A DNA stretch of 64,000 bases. Origin: Gemmatimonadaceae bacterium. Lineage in GTDB: Bacteria > Gemmatimonadota > Gemmatimonadetes > Gemmatimonadales > Gemmatimonadaceae. The DNA lies in NCBI GenBank assembly GCA_019637355.1, contig JAHBVT010000001.1:930001-994000 (forward strand), in the 5' to 3' direction. The notes under the pieces were generated by a model, which had not been told where the DNA came from, made no database searches, and saw only the letters and a list, made by a program, of their open reading frames with translations. Shown piece after piece: positions 22,790 to 63,127 of the stretch; the stretch's first letter is position 1; each line of letters starts with the position of its first letter. The translations under genes and the position numbers were made by a program.

Positions 22790-22874
22790 GGGAGAGGGGA
22801 GGAGGGAGGGGGGTGACGGCGGGGAGACGGGAGAGGGGAGAGGGTTGGGAGAGGGTTGGGAGAGGGGAGAGGGC
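22790..22874. repeat. GGGAGAG-type heptad repeat with conserved core
   Basis: Heptads GGGAGAG, GGGAGGA, GGGAGGG run into the core GGGTGACGGCGGGGAGA (22811-22827), then GGGAGAGG/GGTTGGGAGAG units. Bases 22796-22827 are identical to 42666-42697. It lies in the divergent region between the methyltransferase-like and carrier genes. Confidence 0.8.
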
Positions 22875-36957: not shown

Positions 36958-37031
36958 GTGGCTGTAGCTCAGTCGGTTAGAGCATCGGATTGTGGTTCCG
37001 AGGGTCGCGGGTTCGAATCCCGTCAGCCACC
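36958..37031 (+). tRNA. tRNA-His(GTG)
   Basis: Acceptor GTGGCTG pairs with CAGCCAC; anticodon GTG; T-arm GGGTTCGAATCCC. A G at 36957 could serve as the histidine-specific G-1, opposite C at 37031. First of seven clustered tRNAs; TATTTT at 36919-36924 may be the -10 element. Confidence 0.96.
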
Positions 37032-37043
37032 CCTCGAAGTCTT

Positions 37044-37116
37044 AGGTCCGTAGCTCAATTGGTAGAGCACCGGTCTCCAAAACCGGCGGTTGGGGGTTCG
37101 ATTCCCTCCGGGCCTG
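37044..37116 (+). tRNA. tRNA-Trp(CCA)
   Basis: Acceptor AGGTCCG pairs with CGGGCCT; anticodon loop TCTCCAAAA region gives CCA; T-arm GGGTTCGATTCCC; discriminator G. The spacer after it carries a heptad repeat. Confidence 0.96.
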
Positions 37117-37122
37117 TGTGAG

Positions 37123-37188
37123 GGACGGAGGACGGATGCGAGTTGGGATGCGGAGCGATGGCGTCCGTCATCAGTCATCCGTCGCGCA
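37123..37188. repeat. Heptad repeat between tRNA-Trp and tRNA-Glu
   Basis: GGACGGA twice at the left, CCGTCAT, CAGTCAT, CCGTCGC at the right, with an imperfect inverted arrangement between. Confidence 0.65.
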
Positions 37189-37196
37189 GCAAGAAC

Positions 37197-37269
<73 letters not shown>

Positions 37270-37299
37270 CTCCGTAGGTCAGCAGGTCCGAGGGACATC

Positions 37300-37371
37300 G
37301 GCCCCATCGTCTATCGGCTAGGACGGCACCCTTTCAAGGTGCAGAGACGGGTTCGATTCCCGTTGGGGCTA
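37300..37371 (+). tRNA. tRNA-Glu(TTC)
   Basis: Acceptor GGCCCCA pairs with TGGGGCT (terminal G-U); anticodon loop CTTTCAA gives TTC; T-arm GGGTTCGATTCCC; discriminator A. Confidence 0.96.
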
Positions 37372-37391
37372 TACTCGCCCCCTGCGGGGGC

Positions 37392-37440
37392 GGGACGTCA
37401 GACACAAGACGGAAGACGGAAGGTGCAAGGACGGGTGATG
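37392..37440. repeat. Heptad repeat between tRNA-Glu and tRNA-Asp
   Basis: CAGACAC, AAGACGG, AAGACGG, AAGGTGC, AAGGACG, GGTGATG: seven-base periodicity in a tRNA spacer. Confidence 0.65.
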
Positions 37441-37478
37441 GCAGGCGCTCCCGATCGCTGCACGTGCAGGATGGTGTT

Positions 37479-37553
37479 GGGGGCGTAGCTCAGTTTGGTT
37501 AGAGCACTCGACTGTCACTCGAGAGGTCGCGGGTTCGAGCCCCGTCGCTCCCG
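37479..37553 (+). tRNA. tRNA-Asp(GTC)
   Basis: Acceptor GGGGGCG pairs with CGCTCCC; anticodon loop CTGTCAC gives GTC; T-arm GGGTTCGAGCCCC; discriminator G. Confidence 0.96.
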
Positions 37554-37556
37554 TTG

Positions 37557-37616
37557 TACGGACGGATGGCGGCTGACGGATGCTTCAAGGCTTCCGTCAT
37601 CCGTCATCCGTCCGAG
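37557..37616. repeat. Heptad repeat hairpin between tRNA-Asp and tRNA-Leu
   Basis: Seven-base periodicity throughout (GACGGAT-type on the left, TCCGTCA repeated on the right); GACGGATGC and GCTTCCGTC form a stem-loop around TTCAAG. Confidence 0.75.
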
Positions 37617-37620
37617 AGTC

Positions 37621-37702
37621 GCCCTGGTGGTGAAATTGGTAGACACGCCATCTTGAGGGGGTGGTGCCGCAAGGCGTCGCGGTTCGAGTCCGCGCCAGGG
37701 CA
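37621..37702 (+). tRNA. tRNA-Leu(GAG)
   Basis: 82 nt with a long variable arm. Acceptor GCCCTGG pairs with CCAGGGC; anticodon loop TTGAGGG gives GAG; D-loop AATTGGTAGACAC typical of Leu tRNAs; discriminator A. Confidence 0.95.
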
Positions 37703-37731
37703 TTGGCTGGTCCCGGTGGGATCCTCTCCCC

Positions 37732-37803
37732 GCCACAGTAGCTCAGGGGTAGAGCACTCGATTCGTAATCGAGCGGTCGTGGGTTCAATTCCCACCTGTG
37801 GCT
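37732..37803 (+). tRNA. tRNA-Thr(CGT)
   Basis: Acceptor GCCACAG pairs with CTGTGGC; anticodon loop TTCGTAA gives CGT; T-arm GGGTTCAATTCCC; discriminator T. Last tRNA of the cluster. Confidence 0.96.
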
Positions 37804-42659: not shown

Positions 42660-42850
42660 GCGACAGGGGAGGAGGGAGGGGGGTGACGGCGGGGAGAGGG
42701 GACAGGGGAGATGGTTGAGAGAGGGCAGACGGTCGGGAGATGGCCTTCTCTCAAGCTTCTCCCTTCTCCCAGCCATCTCCCTTCTCCCAACCATCTCCCT
42801 TCTCCCATCTCCCTGCCGTCACCCGCCTCCCCGTCTCCCGCCTCCCAGCG
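42660..42850. repeat. Large inverted heptad-repeat element
   Basis: The left arm carries GGGTGACGGCGGGGAGA (42681-42697) and the right arm the inverted core GCCGTCACCC (42815-42824). Between are GGGGAGA-type heptads, AAGCTT at the centre (42757-42762 area), and TTCTCCC/CATCTCC heptads including two 18-base tandem units. The whole could fold into a long imperfect hairpin. It is dispersed-repeat material upstream of the GntR promoter and downstream of the CoA-transferase gene. Confidence 0.75.
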
Positions 42851-42867
42851 TCCCCACCCACCGCGAC

Positions 42868-51574: not shown

Positions 51575-52168
51575 ATGCTCTGCGCCGTCTGCAACAAGGA
51601 AAGCAAGAACCAACGGGTCTGCCCCTACTGCTTCACTCCGTATCCGGCGGAGGGGCCGTCGGCCAAGCGTCCGACGCGCGCCTCGCCGGTTGCGAACAGC
51701 GGCTCGGCGGCCGGCGCCGCAGGACCATCGCTGATCGACGGACTGCGCGAGAAGGCCGAGGAGGCGCGCGCCTGGTTCCTTCGGCAGACCCCGACGGTGC
51801 GCTACACCTCGGCGGCCATCCTCGCGGTGCTGCTGCTGATGTGGCTGACGCGATCGGAGCCGCAGTTCGAGGCCGGCGTGGTGCAGTCAGAGATCATCGC
51901 CACACCACTGGAGCGCGACGAAGCGTTGGCGACGATCCGCTCCACGCGCGAGACGGCGTTGGTGGACATCCAGCAGGATGAGGTCTTCGTGACCTACTCC
52001 GCCGCGACCTTCCCGGTGCGGGAAGAGGGTCAGTTGGCACTGGTGCAGCTCTTCACGCGCGCCGACGAAATCGTCGAGGGCCGTAAGCGCCGCATCTATT
52101 TCTATAATCCCAACGGCAAGATGTTCGCGCAGGCCGATGGGGTGCGAGGGGTGGTGTTGGTGAGATGA
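51575..52168 (+). CDS. Zinc-ribbon membrane protein of unknown function
   Basis: 197 residues from ATG 51575; a TTG at 51563 would add four. The N-terminus is a zinc ribbon with Cys3, Cys6, Cys16 and Cys19 ('MLCAVCNKESKNQRVCPYC'). A Gly/Ala-rich linker, one membrane helix ('TSAAILAVLLLMWLTRS'), and a soluble C-terminal domain ('VQLFTRADEIVEGRKRRIYF') follow. No named family. It converges with the minus-strand gene at 52235 across a heptad hairpin. Confidence 0.72.
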   Translation: MLCAVCNKESKNQRVCPYCFTPYPAEGPSAKRPTRASPVANSGSAAGAAGPSLIDGLREKAEEARAWFLRQTPTVRYTSAAILAVLLLMWLTRSEPQFEAGVVQSEIIATPLERDEALATIRSTRETALVDIQQDEVFVTYSAATFPVREEGQLALVQLFTRADEIVEGRKRRIYFYNPNGKMFAQADGVRGVVLVR

Positions 52169-52238
52169 GAGACGTGAGACGTGAGACGTGAGCGTTCGCT
52201 CATCTCTCAAGTCTCCCGTCTCAAGTCTCCCGTCTCAT
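52162..52238. repeat. GAGACGT heptad hairpin between convergent genes
   Basis: Eleven consecutive heptads: GAGATGA, GAGACGT three times, GAGCGTT, CGCTCAT, CTCTCAA, GTCTCCC, GTCTCAA, GTCTCCC, GTCTCAT. The halves are complementary around GAGCG-TT-CGCTC, giving a hairpin that overlaps both gene ends; a likely bidirectional terminator. Confidence 0.85.
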
Positions 52239-55564: not shown

Positions 55565-56926
55565 ATGCCCCGATTCCGAATCCGCTCGCTTCTCTCGCTG
55601 GCCTTGGTGTTCGTCGCCACGGCGCTGGCGCTTCCGCTCGCCGCGCAGGAACCGGCGCCGGTGCGCGTCGAGTCCTTCACGCTCACCAACGGACTTCGTG
55701 TCCACGTCGTCGAGGACCGCTCGGCACAGGTGGTGGCCGTGAACCTCTGGTACGACGTCGGTTCGCGCGACGAGCGTCCGGGGCGCACCGGCTTCGCGCA
55801 CCTGTTTGAGCATATGATGTTCCAAGGCTCCGCCAACGTGGGGAAGATGGAGCACGGCCAGTTGGTGGAGCGCGCCGGCGGCGCGTATAACGGATCGACG
55901 CAACCGGACCGCACCAACTACTACCAGGTGCTGCCGTCCAACCGGCTCAACCTCGCGATGTGGCTCGAAGCCGACCGGATGCGTTCGTTGGCGATCACCG
56001 AGGAGAACCTCGAGAACCAGCGGCAGGCGGTGAAGGAGGAGCGCCGCCTGCGCGTGGACAACCAACCGTACTTCGGTGCCTTGGTGGACTCGCTGCCGTT
56101 GCTCTTTGATGCGGAGCGCTGCTTTGCCTACGCGCACTCGATCATCGGCTCGATGCCCGACCTCGACGCCGCCAGCGTCGAGGACGTCAGTGAGTTCTTC
56201 CGCACGCACTACGCCCCCAACAACGCCACGCTGGTTGTGGTCGGCGATGCCAATGTGCCGCAGGTGATGCGGCTGGCGCAACAGTACTTCGGCAACATCC
56301 CGGCCGGGCCGCAGCGTCCGGCGGTGACCTGCGAGGCGGTGGGGGGCAGCGGCGAGCCACGGGTGCGCCGCGTGCTTGATGCCAATGCCACCTTGCCGGC
56401 AGTCATCGTCGCGGTGCCGGGCGTGCCGCCCGCGCACGCAGACTATCCGGCCCTCTCGCTGCTCTCGACGGTCCTCGGCACGGGCGAGAGCAGCCGGCTC
56501 AACCGCACGCTGGTGCGCGAGTCGCAGACCGCGGTCGCCGCGCAGGCCCTGCACGATCCGTTCGGGCCGATGCGCGGCGCGGGCGTGTTCGCGGCGCTGG
56601 CCATCGCCAACGCCGGGGTGGACGCAGAGGCAATGCGCGCCGAACTCGCTGGGCAGCTCTTCGATCTGGCCGATGCGGTGACGGCTGAGGAACTGGCGAA
56701 GGCCAAGAGCATCTGGCGCGCGACGACGATCTTCGGGCGCCAGCGCGCCGAGGCGCTCTCGGAGGCAGTGCACTACGCCGCGATGTATCTCGGAGGCCCC
56801 GAAGCCGTGAATACCGAAGCCTCACGCTACGCGAACGTCACGTTGGCGGACCTGCGCCGAGTGGCCCGTACCTATCTGCGACCGGAGCGTTCGCTGACGC
56901 TGGTCATCGCCCCGGAGGACCGCTGA
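55565..56926 (+). CDS. Secreted M16 zinc peptidase, catalytic subunit
   Basis: 453 residues from ATG 55565. Signal peptide (MPRFRIRSLLSLALVFVATA ... 'PLAAQEP'). Inverted zinc motif HxxEH is intact at 79-83 ('GFAHLFEHMMFQG'), with the downstream Glu pair near 158 ('AVKEERRLRVDN'). It is the catalytic half of a two-gene M16B (pitrilysin) pair; the second subunit follows with a one-base overlap (TGATG). It probably degrades peptides outside the cytoplasm. Confidence 0.93.
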   Translation: MPRFRIRSLLSLALVFVATALALPLAAQEPAPVRVESFTLTNGLRVHVVEDRSAQVVAVNLWYDVGSRDERPGRTGFAHLFEHMMFQGSANVGKMEHGQLVERAGGAYNGSTQPDRTNYYQVLPSNRLNLAMWLEADRMRSLAITEENLENQRQAVKEERRLRVDNQPYFGALVDSLPLLFDAERCFAYAHSIIGSMPDLDAASVEDVSEFFRTHYAPNNATLVVVGDANVPQVMRLAQQYFGNIPAGPQRPAVTCEAVGGSGEPRVRRVLDANATLPAVIVAVPGVPPAHADYPALSLLSTVLGTGESSRLNRTLVRESQTAVAAQALHDPFGPMRGAGVFAALAIANAGVDAEAMRAELAGQLFDLADAVTAEELAKAKSIWRATTIFGRQRAEALSEAVHYAAMYLGGPEAVNTEASRYANVTLADLRRVARTYLRPERSLTLVIAPEDR

Positions 56927-58998
56927 TGCGCCCGATCGTGAAGGTGGCCCTCGCGGCCGCAGTGCTCCCGACGCTCGCGATGGCGCAGGAGCGCCAGCGG
57001 CCGCCGGCGCCGCTCCCGCTGGCCGAGGCGCAGTTCCCGGCCTTCGTGGAGTTCGAGTTGGAGAACGGGCTGCGCGTGGTGTTAGTGCCGAGCGAGAAGC
57101 AGCCGGTGCTCTCGATGCAGTTGTCGGTCCTGGCCGGCACGGTGTTCGATCCGCCGACCAAGAGCGGGCTCGCCGATCTCGTGTCGGGACTGATGACGAA
57201 GGGTGCCGGCTCGCGCAGCGCCGATGAGATCGCCGAGACCATCGAGCGCGTGGGCGGATCGCTCTCGGCGGCGGCCGGACCGGACTTCCTCAGCGTGTCG
57301 GCGTCGGTCCTGACGACCGACCGCGAGCTGGCCTTCGAGCTGGTGGCGGACGCCCTGCTGCGCCCGACGTTCCCGGCGGACGAGCTGGACCTGCTGCGTA
57401 CGCAGACGCTCTCGGCCTTGGCGCTGGCGCGCTCGCAGCCTGACGCCATCGCCGGCCGGATGTTCGCCAAGCACATCTACGGCGATCACCCGTATGGCCG
57501 TCGCGCCGACGAAACCAGCGTGCGCGGCATCACGCGTGCGGACCTAATCGAGTTCCATCGCCTGCGCGTGCGGCCGGCGCAGGGCTTGTTGGTGCTGGCC
57601 GGCGCCATCGACAGCACCGAGGCGCACCGGCTCGCGCAGCGCGCGTTCGGCAGTTGGGCGGGGCGCGGTGCGTTGATGCCGCCGTCGCGGCCGGCGCCGC
57701 AGCGCCAGCGCACGGAGATCGTGCTGGTGCACCGGCCGGGTTCGGTGCAGTCGAACATTATGGTTGGCAACACGACCTGGCAGCCGACCGATACGCGCAG
57801 CCACGCCTTGGCGATGGCCAATCAGGTGCTCGGCGGGGCCAGCGACGCGCGGCTCTTTACGATCCTGCGCGAGGAGAAGGGCTGGACCTACGGTGCCTAC
57901 AGCGATGTGAACCGTGTGCGTGGCCTCGGCACGTTTATGGCCACGGCCGAAGTGCGCACCGAGGTGACCGACTCGGCGCTGGTCGAGTTGCTGCGGCAGG
58001 TGTACCGGATGGGCGCCGAGCCGGTGCCGGCGGACGAGTTCGAGCGACAGCAGCAGACGCTCACCGGGCGATTCCCGCTTACGGTGGAGACGGCGCAGCA
58101 AGTGGCGGCGCAGGTGGCGACGTCGCGGCTGCTCGGGCTCCCCAACGATTATGTGCAGACGTATCGGCAGCGGATCGCGGCGCTGACGCCGGAGCAGGTG
58201 CAGGCGGCGGCACGAGGCGGGATGCGTGCCGAGGCGGCGCTGGTGGTGGTCGTCGGTGACGGCGCGGCGCTGAAGTCTAAGCTCGAGGCGATCGCGCCGG
58301 TGACGATGGTAGACGTGGACGGCGCCCCGATCGCGGTCGAGGAGACGGTGGTGCGGGCGGTGCCGCTGGCCTTCGACCCCAGTGCACTGCGCGCCACCAG
58401 CGACTCGTTCACGGTGATGGTGCAGGGGCAGAACTTCGGCTACCAGAGCTTCACGCTGGAGCCGACGGCCGACGGCTGGCGCTTCTTCGAGAAGTCGGTG
58501 CTCGGGCCGATCATCCAGCAGGAGACGACGGTCGAGTTCACGCGCGAGATGGAGATGCGCTCGACGACGCAGTCCGGCCGCTTTCAGGGCGAGGAGATGA
58601 ACCTGCTCGTGCGCTACGGCGGCGGCCGGGCGACAGGGAGCGGGCGCGCGCCGGGGCAGCAGGGAATGCAGGAGGTCTCGTACCGCGATGCGACCGTGCC
58701 CGACGGCGCGGTGGATGACAATCTGCTCGTGGCGCTGCTGCCGTTCTTCGCCTGGCGCGACGGCGCGACGGTGGAGGTGAACGTGTTCCTGTCGGGGCGC
58801 GGCACGGTGGAGCGGCGCACGCTGCGCGTGGATGGGCAGGAAGTGGTGACGGTGCCGGCGGGAACGTTTGGCGCGTACCGGGTGCAGCTGGTGGGTGGGG
58901 ATGCGGCGGGGACGTATTGGATCGAGGTCGCACAGCCGCATCGGGTGTTGAAGTTCGGGCCGGCGGGGGTGCCTCTCGAGATCGTTCGAGTGCGGTGA
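56926..58998 (+). CDS. M16 peptidase-like non-catalytic subunit fused to a beta-rich C-terminal domain
   Basis: 690 residues, about 230 longer than a normal M16B subunit. Signal peptide (MRPIVKVALAAAVLPTLAMA). The HxxEH position reads 'KSGLADLVSGLMTKGAG', so zinc ligands are lost, as in partner subunits; the R/Y pair region 'EEKGWTYGAYSDV' is kept. From about residue 465 a different domain begins ('DSFTVMVQGQNFGYQSFTLE', 'VTVPAGTFGAYRVQLVGGDA', 'YWIEVAQPHRVLKF') that resembles DUF3108-type beta-barrel proteins. Coupled to the catalytic subunit. Confidence 0.88.
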   Translation: MRPIVKVALAAAVLPTLAMAQERQRPPAPLPLAEAQFPAFVEFELENGLRVVLVPSEKQPVLSMQLSVLAGTVFDPPTKSGLADLVSGLMTKGAGSRSADEIAETIERVGGSLSAAAGPDFLSVSASVLTTDRELAFELVADALLRPTFPADELDLLRTQTLSALALARSQPDAIAGRMFAKHIYGDHPYGRRADETSVRGITRADLIEFHRLRVRPAQGLLVLAGAIDSTEAHRLAQRAFGSWAGRGALMPPSRPAPQRQRTEIVLVHRPGSVQSNIMVGNTTWQPTDTRSHALAMANQVLGGASDARLFTILREEKGWTYGAYSDVNRVRGLGTFMATAEVRTEVTDSALVELLRQVYRMGAEPVPADEFERQQQTLTGRFPLTVETAQQVAAQVATSRLLGLPNDYVQTYRQRIAALTPEQVQAAARGGMRAEAALVVVVGDGAALKSKLEAIAPVTMVDVDGAPIAVEETVVRAVPLAFDPSALRATSDSFTVMVQGQNFGYQSFTLEPTADGWRFFEKSVLGPIIQQETTVEFTREMEMRSTTQSGRFQGEEMNLLVRYGGGRATGSGRAPGQQGMQEVSYRDATVPDGAVDDNLLVALLPFFAWRDGATVEVNVFLSGRGTVERRTLRVDGQEVVTVPAGTFGAYRVQLVGGDAAGTYWIEVAQPHRVLKFGPAGVPLEIVRVR

Positions 58999-58999
58999 G

Positions 59000-59108
59000 T
59001 GCGGTGAGTGCGGAGGGTGCGAGATGGGAGATGGGGAGGTGGGTGACGGCGGGGAGATGGGAGAGGGGAGACGGTTGGGAGAGGGGAAATGGTTGGGAGA
59101 AGAGAGAA
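59000..59108. repeat. Mixed heptad/nonamer repeat with dispersed core
   Basis: Starts with TGCGGTGAG units (period 9), then GAGATGG twice and GGGAGAG-type units around the core GGGTGACGGCGGGGAGA (59041-59057), identical to that at 22811 and 42681. Confidence 0.8.
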
Positions 59109-59138
59109 GGGGGATGGAGCCGGTTGGCTCCATCCCCC
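59109..59138. terminator. Perfect 13-bp bidirectional hairpin
   Basis: GGGGGATGGAGCC pairs with GGCTCCATCCCCC around loop GGTT, between the convergent M16 and zinc peptidase genes. It abuts the CCTT microsatellite. Confidence 0.85.
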
Positions 59139-59226
59139 TTCCTTCCTTCCTTCCTTCCTTCCTTCCTTCCTTCCTTCCTTCCTTCCTTCCTTCCTTCCTT
59201 CCTTCCTTCCTTCCTTCCTTCCTTCC
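59137..59226. repeat. (CCTT)n tetranucleotide microsatellite, about 22.5 units
   Basis: Ninety bases of uninterrupted CCTT. It ends 15 bases before the stop codon of the zinc peptidase on the minus strand. Open frames across it (FLPSFLPS... and similar) are artefacts. Confidence 0.97.
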
Positions 59227-59241
59227 GGCTGCTTCGACCTG

Positions 59242-61830
59242 TTACGGGTTCAGCAACCGATCAATCTGCCAGCGCGCGTCCTGCAGGTGTGCGCGGGTGG
59301 CGGCGTCGCCGGCCTTGGAGAGTGCCGAGGCAAGGGCGGCGTCGAGGGTACGGAGTTCCATCCGCAGCATCGCCTTCACGTCCGTGGACGGGCGGGCCGG
59401 GGCGGTGTAGCTCTGCCCGGTCTGCGCGCTGGACGAGATGCGCGGCGTGGTGGAGGGGTTCGCGTTCAACTTGCCCGCGACCGTCTCCAGATAGATGCGC
59501 TGCAGACCACGACGGTACGGATCCACCCGCACCGAGGCGGCGCCCAGCTCGCTCCACAGGCCCGTCCGCAGGTCGGCGAGGAACTCCGAGAGCGGATACG
59601 GACGCACCGTGCCCGGGATGGCCTCGTACTCCACGAGCCGGGCGAGGCGGTTGTCATCCATCATATAGTTCAGGATGGACCGCTGCGTGCTGTTGATGCG
59701 GGCCACCGAGCCTTCCGGCTCGAGTCGACGCAGGATCTGCGGGTCCAGCAGCCAGGTCGGCGTCTGGAACACGTTCGCGTGCACGAACTGCACCGCCGCA
59801 CGCTGCCGCTCGCGCGGGATCGGCGTGAAGCGCGCGCCCGGCTGCGAGCCGTACTTCTCCTGGCCGTCCGACGAGCCGACGATGGCGGCGACGTGCCGCA
59901 TCTCGTTCGTGTACTGCCCGAGGATGCGGTTGTAGCCTTCCTTCGTGTACGAGACGTCTTCCGTGGTCTGCGTGGTCGCCGGCAGGAGCATCGGGATGAG
60001 TCGCTTCAGATTGCGCAGGCCCAGCTCGCTGCTCTTGAGGGCATCCTGGTCACCGACGGCTTCCGAGTACGCGGTGTACGGGATCGCGCCGAAGTCATCG
60101 GGCACGCCGTAGCGGAACCACGGCACCGTGTCCTGCTGGCGCGCGAGCGCGTCGAGCATCGGACGCTCGTCATCCGGCCCGGTGGTGCCTGGGAACACCG
60201 AGTAGCCCCACTTCACCGAGAAGTGGTCGTAGGGCCCCACCTTCGGGATCAGCGTATGCAGCGGGAGGTTGTCTTCCGGCTGCGCCACGTAGTTGAAGCG
60301 GGCATAGTCCATAATCGTCGGGGCGTGGCCCATCCGCTCCACCCAGCTGCGCGAGCGCACGGAGTCGGCGGGGTACATCGCCGAGGCGATCTGGTTGTGC
60401 GGCAGGCCCAGCGTGTGGCCCACTTCGTGGGCGACGACGAATTGCACGAGGCGCCCCTGCAGCGAATCGGGCAGCGGCAGGCGGGCGGCGCGCGGATCGA
60501 GCGGGCCGACCTGCGTCCAGTACCACCAGGTCTGCAGGTTCATAATGTTGTGGAACATCATCACGTCGGCTTCGATGATCTCGCCCGAACGCGGGTCGAC
60601 GACGCTGGGGCCGACGGCGTTCTCGGTGGTCGAGGCCAGCCAGCGCACCACGGAGTAGCGCGCGTCATCCGGCGACCAGTCGGGATCCTGCTCCTTGCTC
60701 GGGGCGTCGGCGGCGATGATGGCGCGGCGGAAGCCCGCAGCCTCGAAGGCCGGCTGCCATTCCTCGATGCCCGCCTTCACGAAGGGCACGAGCCAGGTTG
60801 GCGTCGCCGGGTCCACATAGTAGACGATCGGCTTCACCGGCTCGGAGATGGCGGCATTGGGGTCCTTCTTCTCCAGACGCCAGCGCGAGATGTACGCGCG
60901 GGACTGCGCGCGCTGCTCGGGGCGGGAGAAATCCACGCGGGTGCTGTGGAAGTACCCGACGCGCGAGTCACGCAGGCGCGGGCGCATCGGCGTTTCCGGC
61001 AGCTTCACCATCGACCAATGCACGACGAAGGACTTCGTGGTCGTCGGCGTGCCCGGCGGCGGCTGCGTCGGCGGCAGGCCAGGCAGGAACGACTGCGCCG
61101 TGGGCTGCGCGTTGATCGTCAGCACGGCCTCGACCTCGACGTTCGTCGGGAAGGACGCCACGGTCTCGATGAACGAGCGTGCCGCATCCACCGTGCCGCG
61201 GGTCTGGCGCACGATGCTGATCTCGTTCGGCGGCGCGGTGTAGAGGCGCGACACGTCGATGACGGCGGCCGAGTCGGCACCGTAGGCTTCGACGTTGAAC
61301 GAGGCGAGGATCGCGGGATAGTTCGAGCGATCGACCGCCTCGGCAATGGGGTCGTTCGGATCCGCCACGATCGCGAAGCTCATCCGGCGCAGCAGCACGC
61401 GGTGGCCGCGGCGCTCCCAGCGGATGACTTCCCGCGAGATCTCGTCGCCGCCGAGCCCGTCAGTGCGGGTGTTGTAGGCCACGCGCGTCACGAGCAGCAG
61501 ATCCTTGTTGAACTCGCTCGCCGGAATCTCGAAGTACAGCCGGCTGGCGCCGATCATATGGGTCTTGAAGAGCCCGTCACGGGTCTTCACGTCGCCACGA
61601 ATGACCTGCGCGTACGGACGCGGCTGCGGGTCTTGGCCCTGCGCGGCGCCTTGCGCGCCCTGGGCATTGCCCTGGCCGCCGGTGCCGGTGCCGCCTTGCT
61701 GAACGGCCGGTGCGCCGGCGGGACGCGCCGGGCTGGGGCTGGGGGCCGGGGTGCTGGCGCCAGCTGACGTGCACGACGCCAGGACGAGGGCCAGACCGGC
61801 GGAGACAATGAACGGTCGTGTGGGTCGCAT
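59242..61830 (-). CDS. Zinc-dependent metalloprotease lipoprotein (DUF5117/DUF5118 type)
   Basis: 862 residues from ATG 61830. Lipoprotein signal (MRPTRPFIVSAGLALVLASC) then a Gly/Gln/Ala-rich linker. An N-terminal DUF5118/5117-like region ('YFEIPASEFNKDLLLVTRVA') precedes the peptidase core with an HExxHxxGxxH zinc site ('VVAHEVGHTLGLPHNQIAS') and the Met-turn-like 'PTIMDYARFNY'. The C-terminal domain includes 'RSILNYMMDDNRLARLVEYE'. It is an exported metallopeptidase frequent in Bacteroidota and Gemmatimonadota. The frame is open to 62004 but overlaps dinB. Confidence 0.92.
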   Translation of the reverse strand: MRPTRPFIVSAGLALVLASCTSAGASTPAPSPSPARPAGAPAVQQGGTGTGGQGNAQGAQGAAQGQDPQPRPYAQVIRGDVKTRDGLFKTHMIGASRLYFEIPASEFNKDLLLVTRVAYNTRTDGLGGDEISREVIRWERRGHRVLLRRMSFAIVADPNDPIAEAVDRSNYPAILASFNVEAYGADSAAVIDVSRLYTAPPNEISIVRQTRGTVDAARSFIETVASFPTNVEVEAVLTINAQPTAQSFLPGLPPTQPPPGTPTTTKSFVVHWSMVKLPETPMRPRLRDSRVGYFHSTRVDFSRPEQRAQSRAYISRWRLEKKDPNAAISEPVKPIVYYVDPATPTWLVPFVKAGIEEWQPAFEAAGFRRAIIAADAPSKEQDPDWSPDDARYSVVRWLASTTENAVGPSVVDPRSGEIIEADVMMFHNIMNLQTWWYWTQVGPLDPRAARLPLPDSLQGRLVQFVVAHEVGHTLGLPHNQIASAMYPADSVRSRSWVERMGHAPTIMDYARFNYVAQPEDNLPLHTLIPKVGPYDHFSVKWGYSVFPGTTGPDDERPMLDALARQQDTVPWFRYGVPDDFGAIPYTAYSEAVGDQDALKSSELGLRNLKRLIPMLLPATTQTTEDVSYTKEGYNRILGQYTNEMRHVAAIVGSSDGQEKYGSQPGARFTPIPRERQRAAVQFVHANVFQTPTWLLDPQILRRLEPEGSVARINSTQRSILNYMMDDNRLARLVEYEAIPGTVRPYPLSEFLADLRTGLWSELGAASVRVDPYRRGLQRIYLETVAGKLNANPSTTPRISSSAQTGQSYTAPARPSTDVKAMLRMELRTLDAALASALSKAGDAATRAHLQDARWQIDRLLNP

Positions 61831-61900: not shown

Positions 61901-63127
61901 CTACGGTGCGCGACGCACTGGCGTTGAGGCGGCGCGGATGGCGCCGTCGCCGAAGCGCGAGCGCACTTGGTCCATTGCCTTGGCCAAGGCGCGGTCCTCG
62001 GCACGCTCGACGGTGCCGGTCGGGCCAGCGAACAGGCCCAACTGCTCGGCGTCGCGGGCAGGGCCGAGTCCGCCCAATGCGACGCCCACCAGTCGCGCCG
62101 GATGGCGTCGCGCGGTGCGGAGCTTGGTCAAGAGCTGCACGGCGACGTCACCGATTGCGCGGTCGCTCTCCAGCGGCTCGGCAGTGCTGCGACTCGCCAA
62201 CCGCGTGGTGAAGTCGGCGTCGCGGAGCTTGACCGTGACGCTGCGCGCGGCCAAGCGCTCGTCGCGCAGCTCGGCGGCCGCCTTGGCCACAAGGGCGCGG
62301 AGGTGCGCCGCAAGTTGCACGTTGTCGGAGACATCGCGGGCGAAGGTGCTCTCGCGCGAGATCTGCTTGGCCGCGCCGCGCGCTTCCACCGGCGCGGTGT
62401 GGATGCCGCGCACGCGGGCCCAGAGCCATTCGGCCGGACGGCGCCCGAGCCAACGCGCGAGCGTCGCGCGGTCGTGCGGGAGCACGTCGGTCACGCGCTC
62501 CAAGCCGAGTCCCTTGAGCTTGACCTGCAGCTTGGGCCCGACGCCTGGAATCTCGGCCAGGGCGAGGCCCTTGAGGAAGTCCTGCTCGGCGCCTGCGGGC
62601 ACCACGTACACGCCGGTAGCGGTGGTGCCCGGTCGCGGCTTTGCCCGCTCGGCGGCCAGCTTGGCGACGAGCTTGGAGCTGCCGCCGCCGAGCGAGATCC
62701 ACATTCCCGTCTCGCGGTGGACGTCGTTGCGAATGCGCGCGGCGGTCTGCTCGAGCGTCTCGTGGCCGTGCAGGGCCTCGGTACCGGTGAGGTCGAGGTA
62801 CCACTCGTCGATGCTGGCGCCTTCGACGACGGGCGTGAATCGGCCGAGCACGGCCGCAATCGCCTTGGACGCAGCGCTGCAGGCGCCGCGAGGCACGGGC
62901 ACGCACATCGCATCGGGGCAGAGGCGCAGGGCCTGCGCGATGGGCATCGCGCTGCGCACGCCATAGGCGCGGGTCTCATACGATGCCGAGCAGACGACGC
63001 CGCGTCCGCCGGGCCGGCCACCGACGATGAGCAGTGGGGCGCGCCCGGCGCCGTCGGGATCCGCCATCCGCGCCACCGCGACGAAGAACGCGTCGGCGTC
63101 GGCGTGGAGAATGCGGCGGGCGGTCAT
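61901..63127 (-). CDS. dinB: DNA polymerase IV (Y-family)
   Basis: 408 residues from ATG 63127. It does translesion synthesis. Catalytic Asp in 'LHADADAFFVAVARM', nucleotide-contact 'SYETRAYGVRSAMPIAQALR', catalytic 'VVEGASIDEWYLDLTGTE' (the usual SIDEA reads SIDEW here), HhH motifs 'EIPGVGPKLQVKLKGLG', and the little-finger domain. The C-terminal part lacks a recognisable beta-clamp motif by eye. The frame runs to 63316 but the leaderless TATGCT supports 63127. Confidence 0.92.
   Translation of the reverse strand: MTARRILHADADAFFVAVARMADPDGAGRAPLLIVGGRPGGRGVVCSASYETRAYGVRSAMPIAQALRLCPDAMCVPVPRGACSAASKAIAAVLGRFTPVVEGASIDEWYLDLTGTEALHGHETLEQTAARIRNDVHRETGMWISLGGGSSKLVAKLAAERAKPRPGTTATGVYVVPAGAEQDFLKGLALAEIPGVGPKLQVKLKGLGLERVTDVLPHDRATLARWLGRRPAEWLWARVRGIHTAPVEARGAAKQISRESTFARDVSDNVQLAAHLRALVAKAAAELRDERLAARSVTVKLRDADFTTRLASRSTAEPLESDRAIGDVAVQLLTKLRTARRHPARLVGVALGGLGPARDAEQLGLFAGPTGTVERAEDRALAKAMDQVRSRFGDGAIRAASTPVRRAP

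Follow-up and report, generated by a model that had tools for sequence, protein, structure and literature searches.

An uninterrupted 90-nt CCTT tract beside a terminator-like hairpin between convergent peptidase genes: a probable slippage expansion in a Met-zincin 3' UTR

Long tetranucleotide simple sequence repeats of the phase-variation type occur in Haemophilus and Neisseria. The CCTT tract that we describe here, at positions 59137-59226 of the window (the whole stretch of 64,000 nucleotides that was analysed), resembles these repeats in its purity and in a length at which slippage is to be expected. It differs from them in its location, a 3' UTR between convergent genes, where there is no switching target. 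The tract reads as (CCTT)22.5 on the + strand and as (AAGG)22.5 on the - strand, and Tandem Repeats Finder assigns to it a period of 4, 22.5 copies, 100% matches and 0 indels. Thus it is a long pure tandem of a short unit, as a phase-variable repeat should be, but instead of lying in a reading frame or a promoter it is placed 15 nt after a stop codon, between two convergent stops. We propose that the tract is a recent, lineage-specific slippage expansion in the 3' UTR of a Met-zincin gene and that it is near-neutral, a reading to which we assign a probability of about 0.68.

The two convergent genes are an M16 peptidase with a C-terminal DUF3108 (56926-58998, + strand, recognized by ORFs, domain matches and the gene finder) and a Met-zincin of the DUF5118-DUF5117-DUF4953 type (59242-61830, - strand), whose mechanical ORF extends up to 62004 and whose start is uncertain. 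The Met-zincin stop is separated from the tract by a residual spacer of 15 nt on the same strand (59227-59241), and (AAGG)22.5 falls within the 3' UTR that is predicted for the - strand mRNA of the Met-zincin. A codon-usage gene finder placed the tract inside none of the called genes, and the plus-strand ORFs that run across it (259, 128 and 892 aa) were rejected as mechanical, since a CCTT repeat is free of stops in all frames. We likewise rejected phase variation through a frame or a promoter, with no called gene or promoter-like site holding the tract; the tract is intergenic, flanked by convergent genes and away from any promoter or frame, so that classical phase variation has no obvious target here. 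The Met-zincin gene is adjoined by a gene for a Y-family DNA polymerase with IMS domains (window 61901-63127), for which no link to the repeat is shown. A search against Rfam gave no RNA family match at the tract site; its matches in the window are ten tRNAs only, and seven tRNA genes are clustered on the + strand at 36958-37803.

The tract is rare in its own genome and in related ones. The window contains 20 overlapping (CCTT)3 matches versus 0 in each of 100 dinucleotide shuffles, and every exact (CCTT)4 match of the 3.15-Mb genome is part of this single tract. A sample of 464 kb, consisting of the window and 20 stretches of 20 kb, held 13 perfect short tandem runs of at least 18 nt; the CCTT tract was the only tetranucleotide run among them, and the next longest run measured 30 nt and had a heptamer unit. 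(CCTT)6 is present in 1 of the 17 genomes of the genus and in 2 of the 395 genomes of the phylum. The preliminary description of this DNA had reported a rare, uninterrupted (CCTT)22 between convergent genes, 15 bases from the stop of a zinc peptidase and outside promoter and reading frame, and had concluded that the usual on/off switching does not apply. All of these statements hold in the assembly, where the stop lies at 59242. However, that account overlooked the hairpin abutting the tract and the conservation of this hairpin, and the tract in fact shares its first five bases (59137-59141) with the 3' end of the hairpin stem. It also passed over a GGGAGA-type array on the other side of the hairpin and the scatter of tracts of (CCTT)8 or more across many phyla.

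The hairpin occupies positions 59106-59141, is terminator-like for both genes, and its 3' arm ends in CCTTC, the bases shared with the tract. As RNA from either strand it has a folding energy of -34.6 kcal/mol, and it is thus a stable GC-rich hairpin following a stop codon, as is typical of intrinsic terminators. It resembles the intrinsic two-way terminators of convergent genes in having a perfect GC-rich stem (16 bp) and a 4-nt loop between convergent stops, but it differs from them in its tails, which are C/T-rich on both strands, with no U run directly after the stem. A scan for terminators with T-rich tails did not flag the hairpin. Therefore, while the hairpin looks like a two-way terminator, termination itself is something that we infer. 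A 3'-end role of perfect stems of at least 12 bp is supported by their concentration in convergent gaps: in a sample of gaps of at least 40 nt from this genome and from the same-genus genome G011, such stems were found in 13 of 59 convergent gaps versus 12 of 288 other gaps (p = 3e-5), and in G011 alone in 7 of 24 versus 4 of 121.

The same junction was compared in relatives. A Met-zincin query was searched in 41 genomes (our own, 16 of the genus and 24 further relatives), the junction was examined at 14 genus loci (L010-L023), and the C-terminal end of the Met-zincin was located in 12 of them. In eight of these 12 relatives a convergent M16 C-terminus lies within 600 nt of the Met-zincin end, and none of these eight has a CCTT run at the junction. 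The hairpin, on the other hand, is retained: six of the eight have perfect stems of 16-23 bp and the other two have near-perfect long stems. Judging from the genomes compared, it is structure rather than sequence that is conserved at the junction, because the stems differ in sequence between genomes. The intergenic length is 106-175 nt in the eight relatives versus 243 nt here, or 153 nt without the tract. The distance from stop to stem in the six relatives with a perfect stem is 15, 16, 20, 24, 35 and 69 nt; here it amounts to 100 nt, of which 85 are tract, and the remaining 15 nt compare with 15, 16 and 20 nt in the nearest relatives, G011, G007 and G002. No convincing alignment of this 15-nt spacer with the spacers of the relatives could be made by eye, and thus the ancestral sequence was not recovered. 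As for the four relatives with no M16 within 600 nt, the best perfect stem is 9 bp in one and 13 bp in another, and the other two have no perfect stem of at least 9 bp (loop up to 8 nt). In G011 (L230, 10740-10894) and G002 (L010) the junction has a further long inverted repeat, composed of short motifs, which lies with the terminator hairpin on one side and the stop of the M16 gene on the other.

In the reading that we prefer, the short purine-rich spacer that runs from the Met-zincin stop codon to the base of the hairpin would be where the expansion arose, an AAGG/CCTT unit at the stem end being the presumed seed and slippage the presumed mechanism. The expansion would have added about 85 nt to the 3' UTR of the Met-zincin and left the hairpin and both genes undisturbed, and the tract is therefore probably tolerated and near-neutral. 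The lack of any interruption in 90 nt is as expected of a tract that is young or turning over, and the repeat number would be expected to drift among strains. A neutral slippage product was one of the options named in the preliminary description, and it is the best supported of them, the tract being absent from the relatives and the hairpin and its spacing being kept. Both MutS and MutL are present (the mutS1 and mutL families give matches above their cut-offs), and therefore a repair defect does not explain the tract.

It had also been suggested that the repeat number might alter 3'-end formation. This suggestion is weakened by folding predictions, in which the hairpin forms with a probability of at least 0.999 in the RNA of both strands at ten repeat numbers from 0 to 40. 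Disruption of the terminator by repeat number is accordingly not supported, and on/off switching is not expected, because the hairpin is predicted to form whatever the repeat number. The lengths of the 3' UTR and of the antisense RNA would still shift by 4 nt per unit, and an effect of such shifts is possible. One could argue that (AAGG)n is a functional 3'-UTR element which adjusts the stability of the mRNA, its accessibility to RNase or the antisense overlap of the two peptidase genes, its varying length acting as a rheostat. The position of the tract within the predicted 3' UTR would agree with this, as would the + strand RNA of the whole junction, which folds better than its shuffles (z -3.17) and whose predicted energy falls with added units up to about 25. 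However, the - strand RNA of the junction, in which the tract precedes the hairpin, has no folding advantage over shuffles (z -0.07) and the relatives do without the tract, so that we consider such an element quite unlikely. We see very little chance that slippage of (AAGG)n in a hypervariable 3' UTR grades the expression of both genes with promoter and frame untouched, and just as little for the route that this would take, through changes in the distance between the protective hairpin and the coding region and in the extent to which the convergent transcripts of the two peptidase genes overlap.

Another concern is that the true tract is shorter or different and that CCTT units were laid down by the assembler or by gap-filling. 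The only other genome with (CCTT)6 among the 395 of the phylum, G398 (L237, C132), carries (CCTT)9 on either side of an N run resembling a scaffold gap, and this double (CCTT)9 is likely to be an assembly artefact; additionally, among the 118 listed loci of other species with (CCTT)8 or more, the tract is within 100 nt of a contig end in 10 and within 150 nt of an N run in 1. Contrary to these cases, the present tract is flanked left and right by ordered unique sequence within a contig of 3.136 Mb, and both the intergenic length and the stop-to-stem spacing match those of the relatives once the tract is discounted, which makes an artefact unlikely in our opinion. At the level of DNA, the mirror-symmetric polypurine tract could form an intramolecular triplex that stalls polymerases between the convergent genes. 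According to the available part of PMC4666352, H-DNA requires a polypurine/polypyrimidine mirror repeat, and read directly the tract (59137-59226) is a perfect one. This is an argument from composition, though; no relative examined retains the tract, and the same part of that paper reports no promoter or terminator activity for triplex motifs of E. coli. A triplex function thus seems to us highly improbable.

If the slippage expansion is neutral, the locus would show neatly how bacterial microsatellites of great length can come about in places under weak selection, here a spacer bounded by a stop codon and a terminator, and the tract could be used as a marker for strain typing. A long tetranucleotide repeat without a target should not be taken as phase variation. 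If, instead, the length of the tract affects 3'-end or antisense regulation, repeats would here drive variation in a mode that involves neither promoter nor frame, and our literature search on such variation found no paper.

The GGGAGA-type array on the other side of the hairpin (59026-59105, + strand, detected by Tandem Repeats Finder and BLAST) has described counterparts of its own. It is purine-rich, degenerate and tandem, and it belongs to a class of arrays that are dispersed over intergenic regions and often form inverted pairs: with 59020-59105 as the BLAST query, the genome yields 52 matches, among them the query's own site. Many of the other copies have a reverse-complement arm, which 59026-59105 lacks; where both arms are present, the purine arm precedes the pyrimidine arm in 17 of 17 intergenic regions here and in 2 of 2 in G011. 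The units in this genome are of the GGGAGA type, GACGGAT and others, and G011 has such arrays too, built from different units (AGTTGGG, AGATGTG). In the window, degenerate purine arrays, often based on a heptamer, are present at 22796-22866, 42661-42855, 52160-52237 and 59026-59105, and at many more sites of the genome. Tandem arrays were found in 55 of 202 sampled gaps of at least 40 nt here, in a sample partly chosen for arrays, versus 17 of 145 in G011. They are not a feature of convergent genes (12 of 35 convergent versus 43 of 167 other gaps, p = 0.30). The available part of PMC4692102 describes heptameric G-rich intergenic arrays of the GGGNATC type, in inverted pairs, in Xanthomonas and Nostoc. 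As far as that part of the paper goes, the arrays described here are alike in being intergenic, degenerate, often heptameric and often paired, purine arm ahead of pyrimidine arm, but they have another unit and occur in an unrelated phylum, and the likeness concerns the neighbouring array and not the CCTT tract. Literature searches on Gemmatimonadetes or Gemmatimonas and repeats turned up, judging by title, no paper on such arrays.

The CCTT tract itself can be compared with tracts of the same unit elsewhere. An exact (CCTT)8 scan of a genome collection covering 84,980 species gave at least 118 stretches, which, among the matches listed, are scattered over many phyla; the listed matches of other species have a median tract length of 41.5 nt and a maximum of 110 nt, and that longest tract is the only one of 118 to reach 90 nt. 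Within these 118, 52 lie between ORFs, 21 could not be assigned and 45 lie within a long ORF, the last figure being an over-count because CCTT contains no stop. The 52 intergenic listed tracts comprise 11 convergent, 25 codirectional and 16 divergent cases. Hairpins are not enriched beside them (2 of 52 listed versus 63 of 1880 random intergenic positions, p = 0.52); these counts show no general association of hairpins with the CCTT tracts of other bacteria, and seeding by terminators is therefore no general rule. A Bacteroidales contig (L171) nevertheless shows, independently, the present order of a stop, (AAGG)12, a GAAGGGG-type hairpin and a convergent ORF, and so shares both the unit and the arrangement with our tract at an unrelated locus, whereas Rikenella microfusus (L095) has the same unit over 110 nt, also at an unrelated locus. 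Other bacterial (CCTT)n/(AAGG)n tracts are mostly shorter than the present 90 nt. Thus the tract is unusual in its length but ordinary in its kind.
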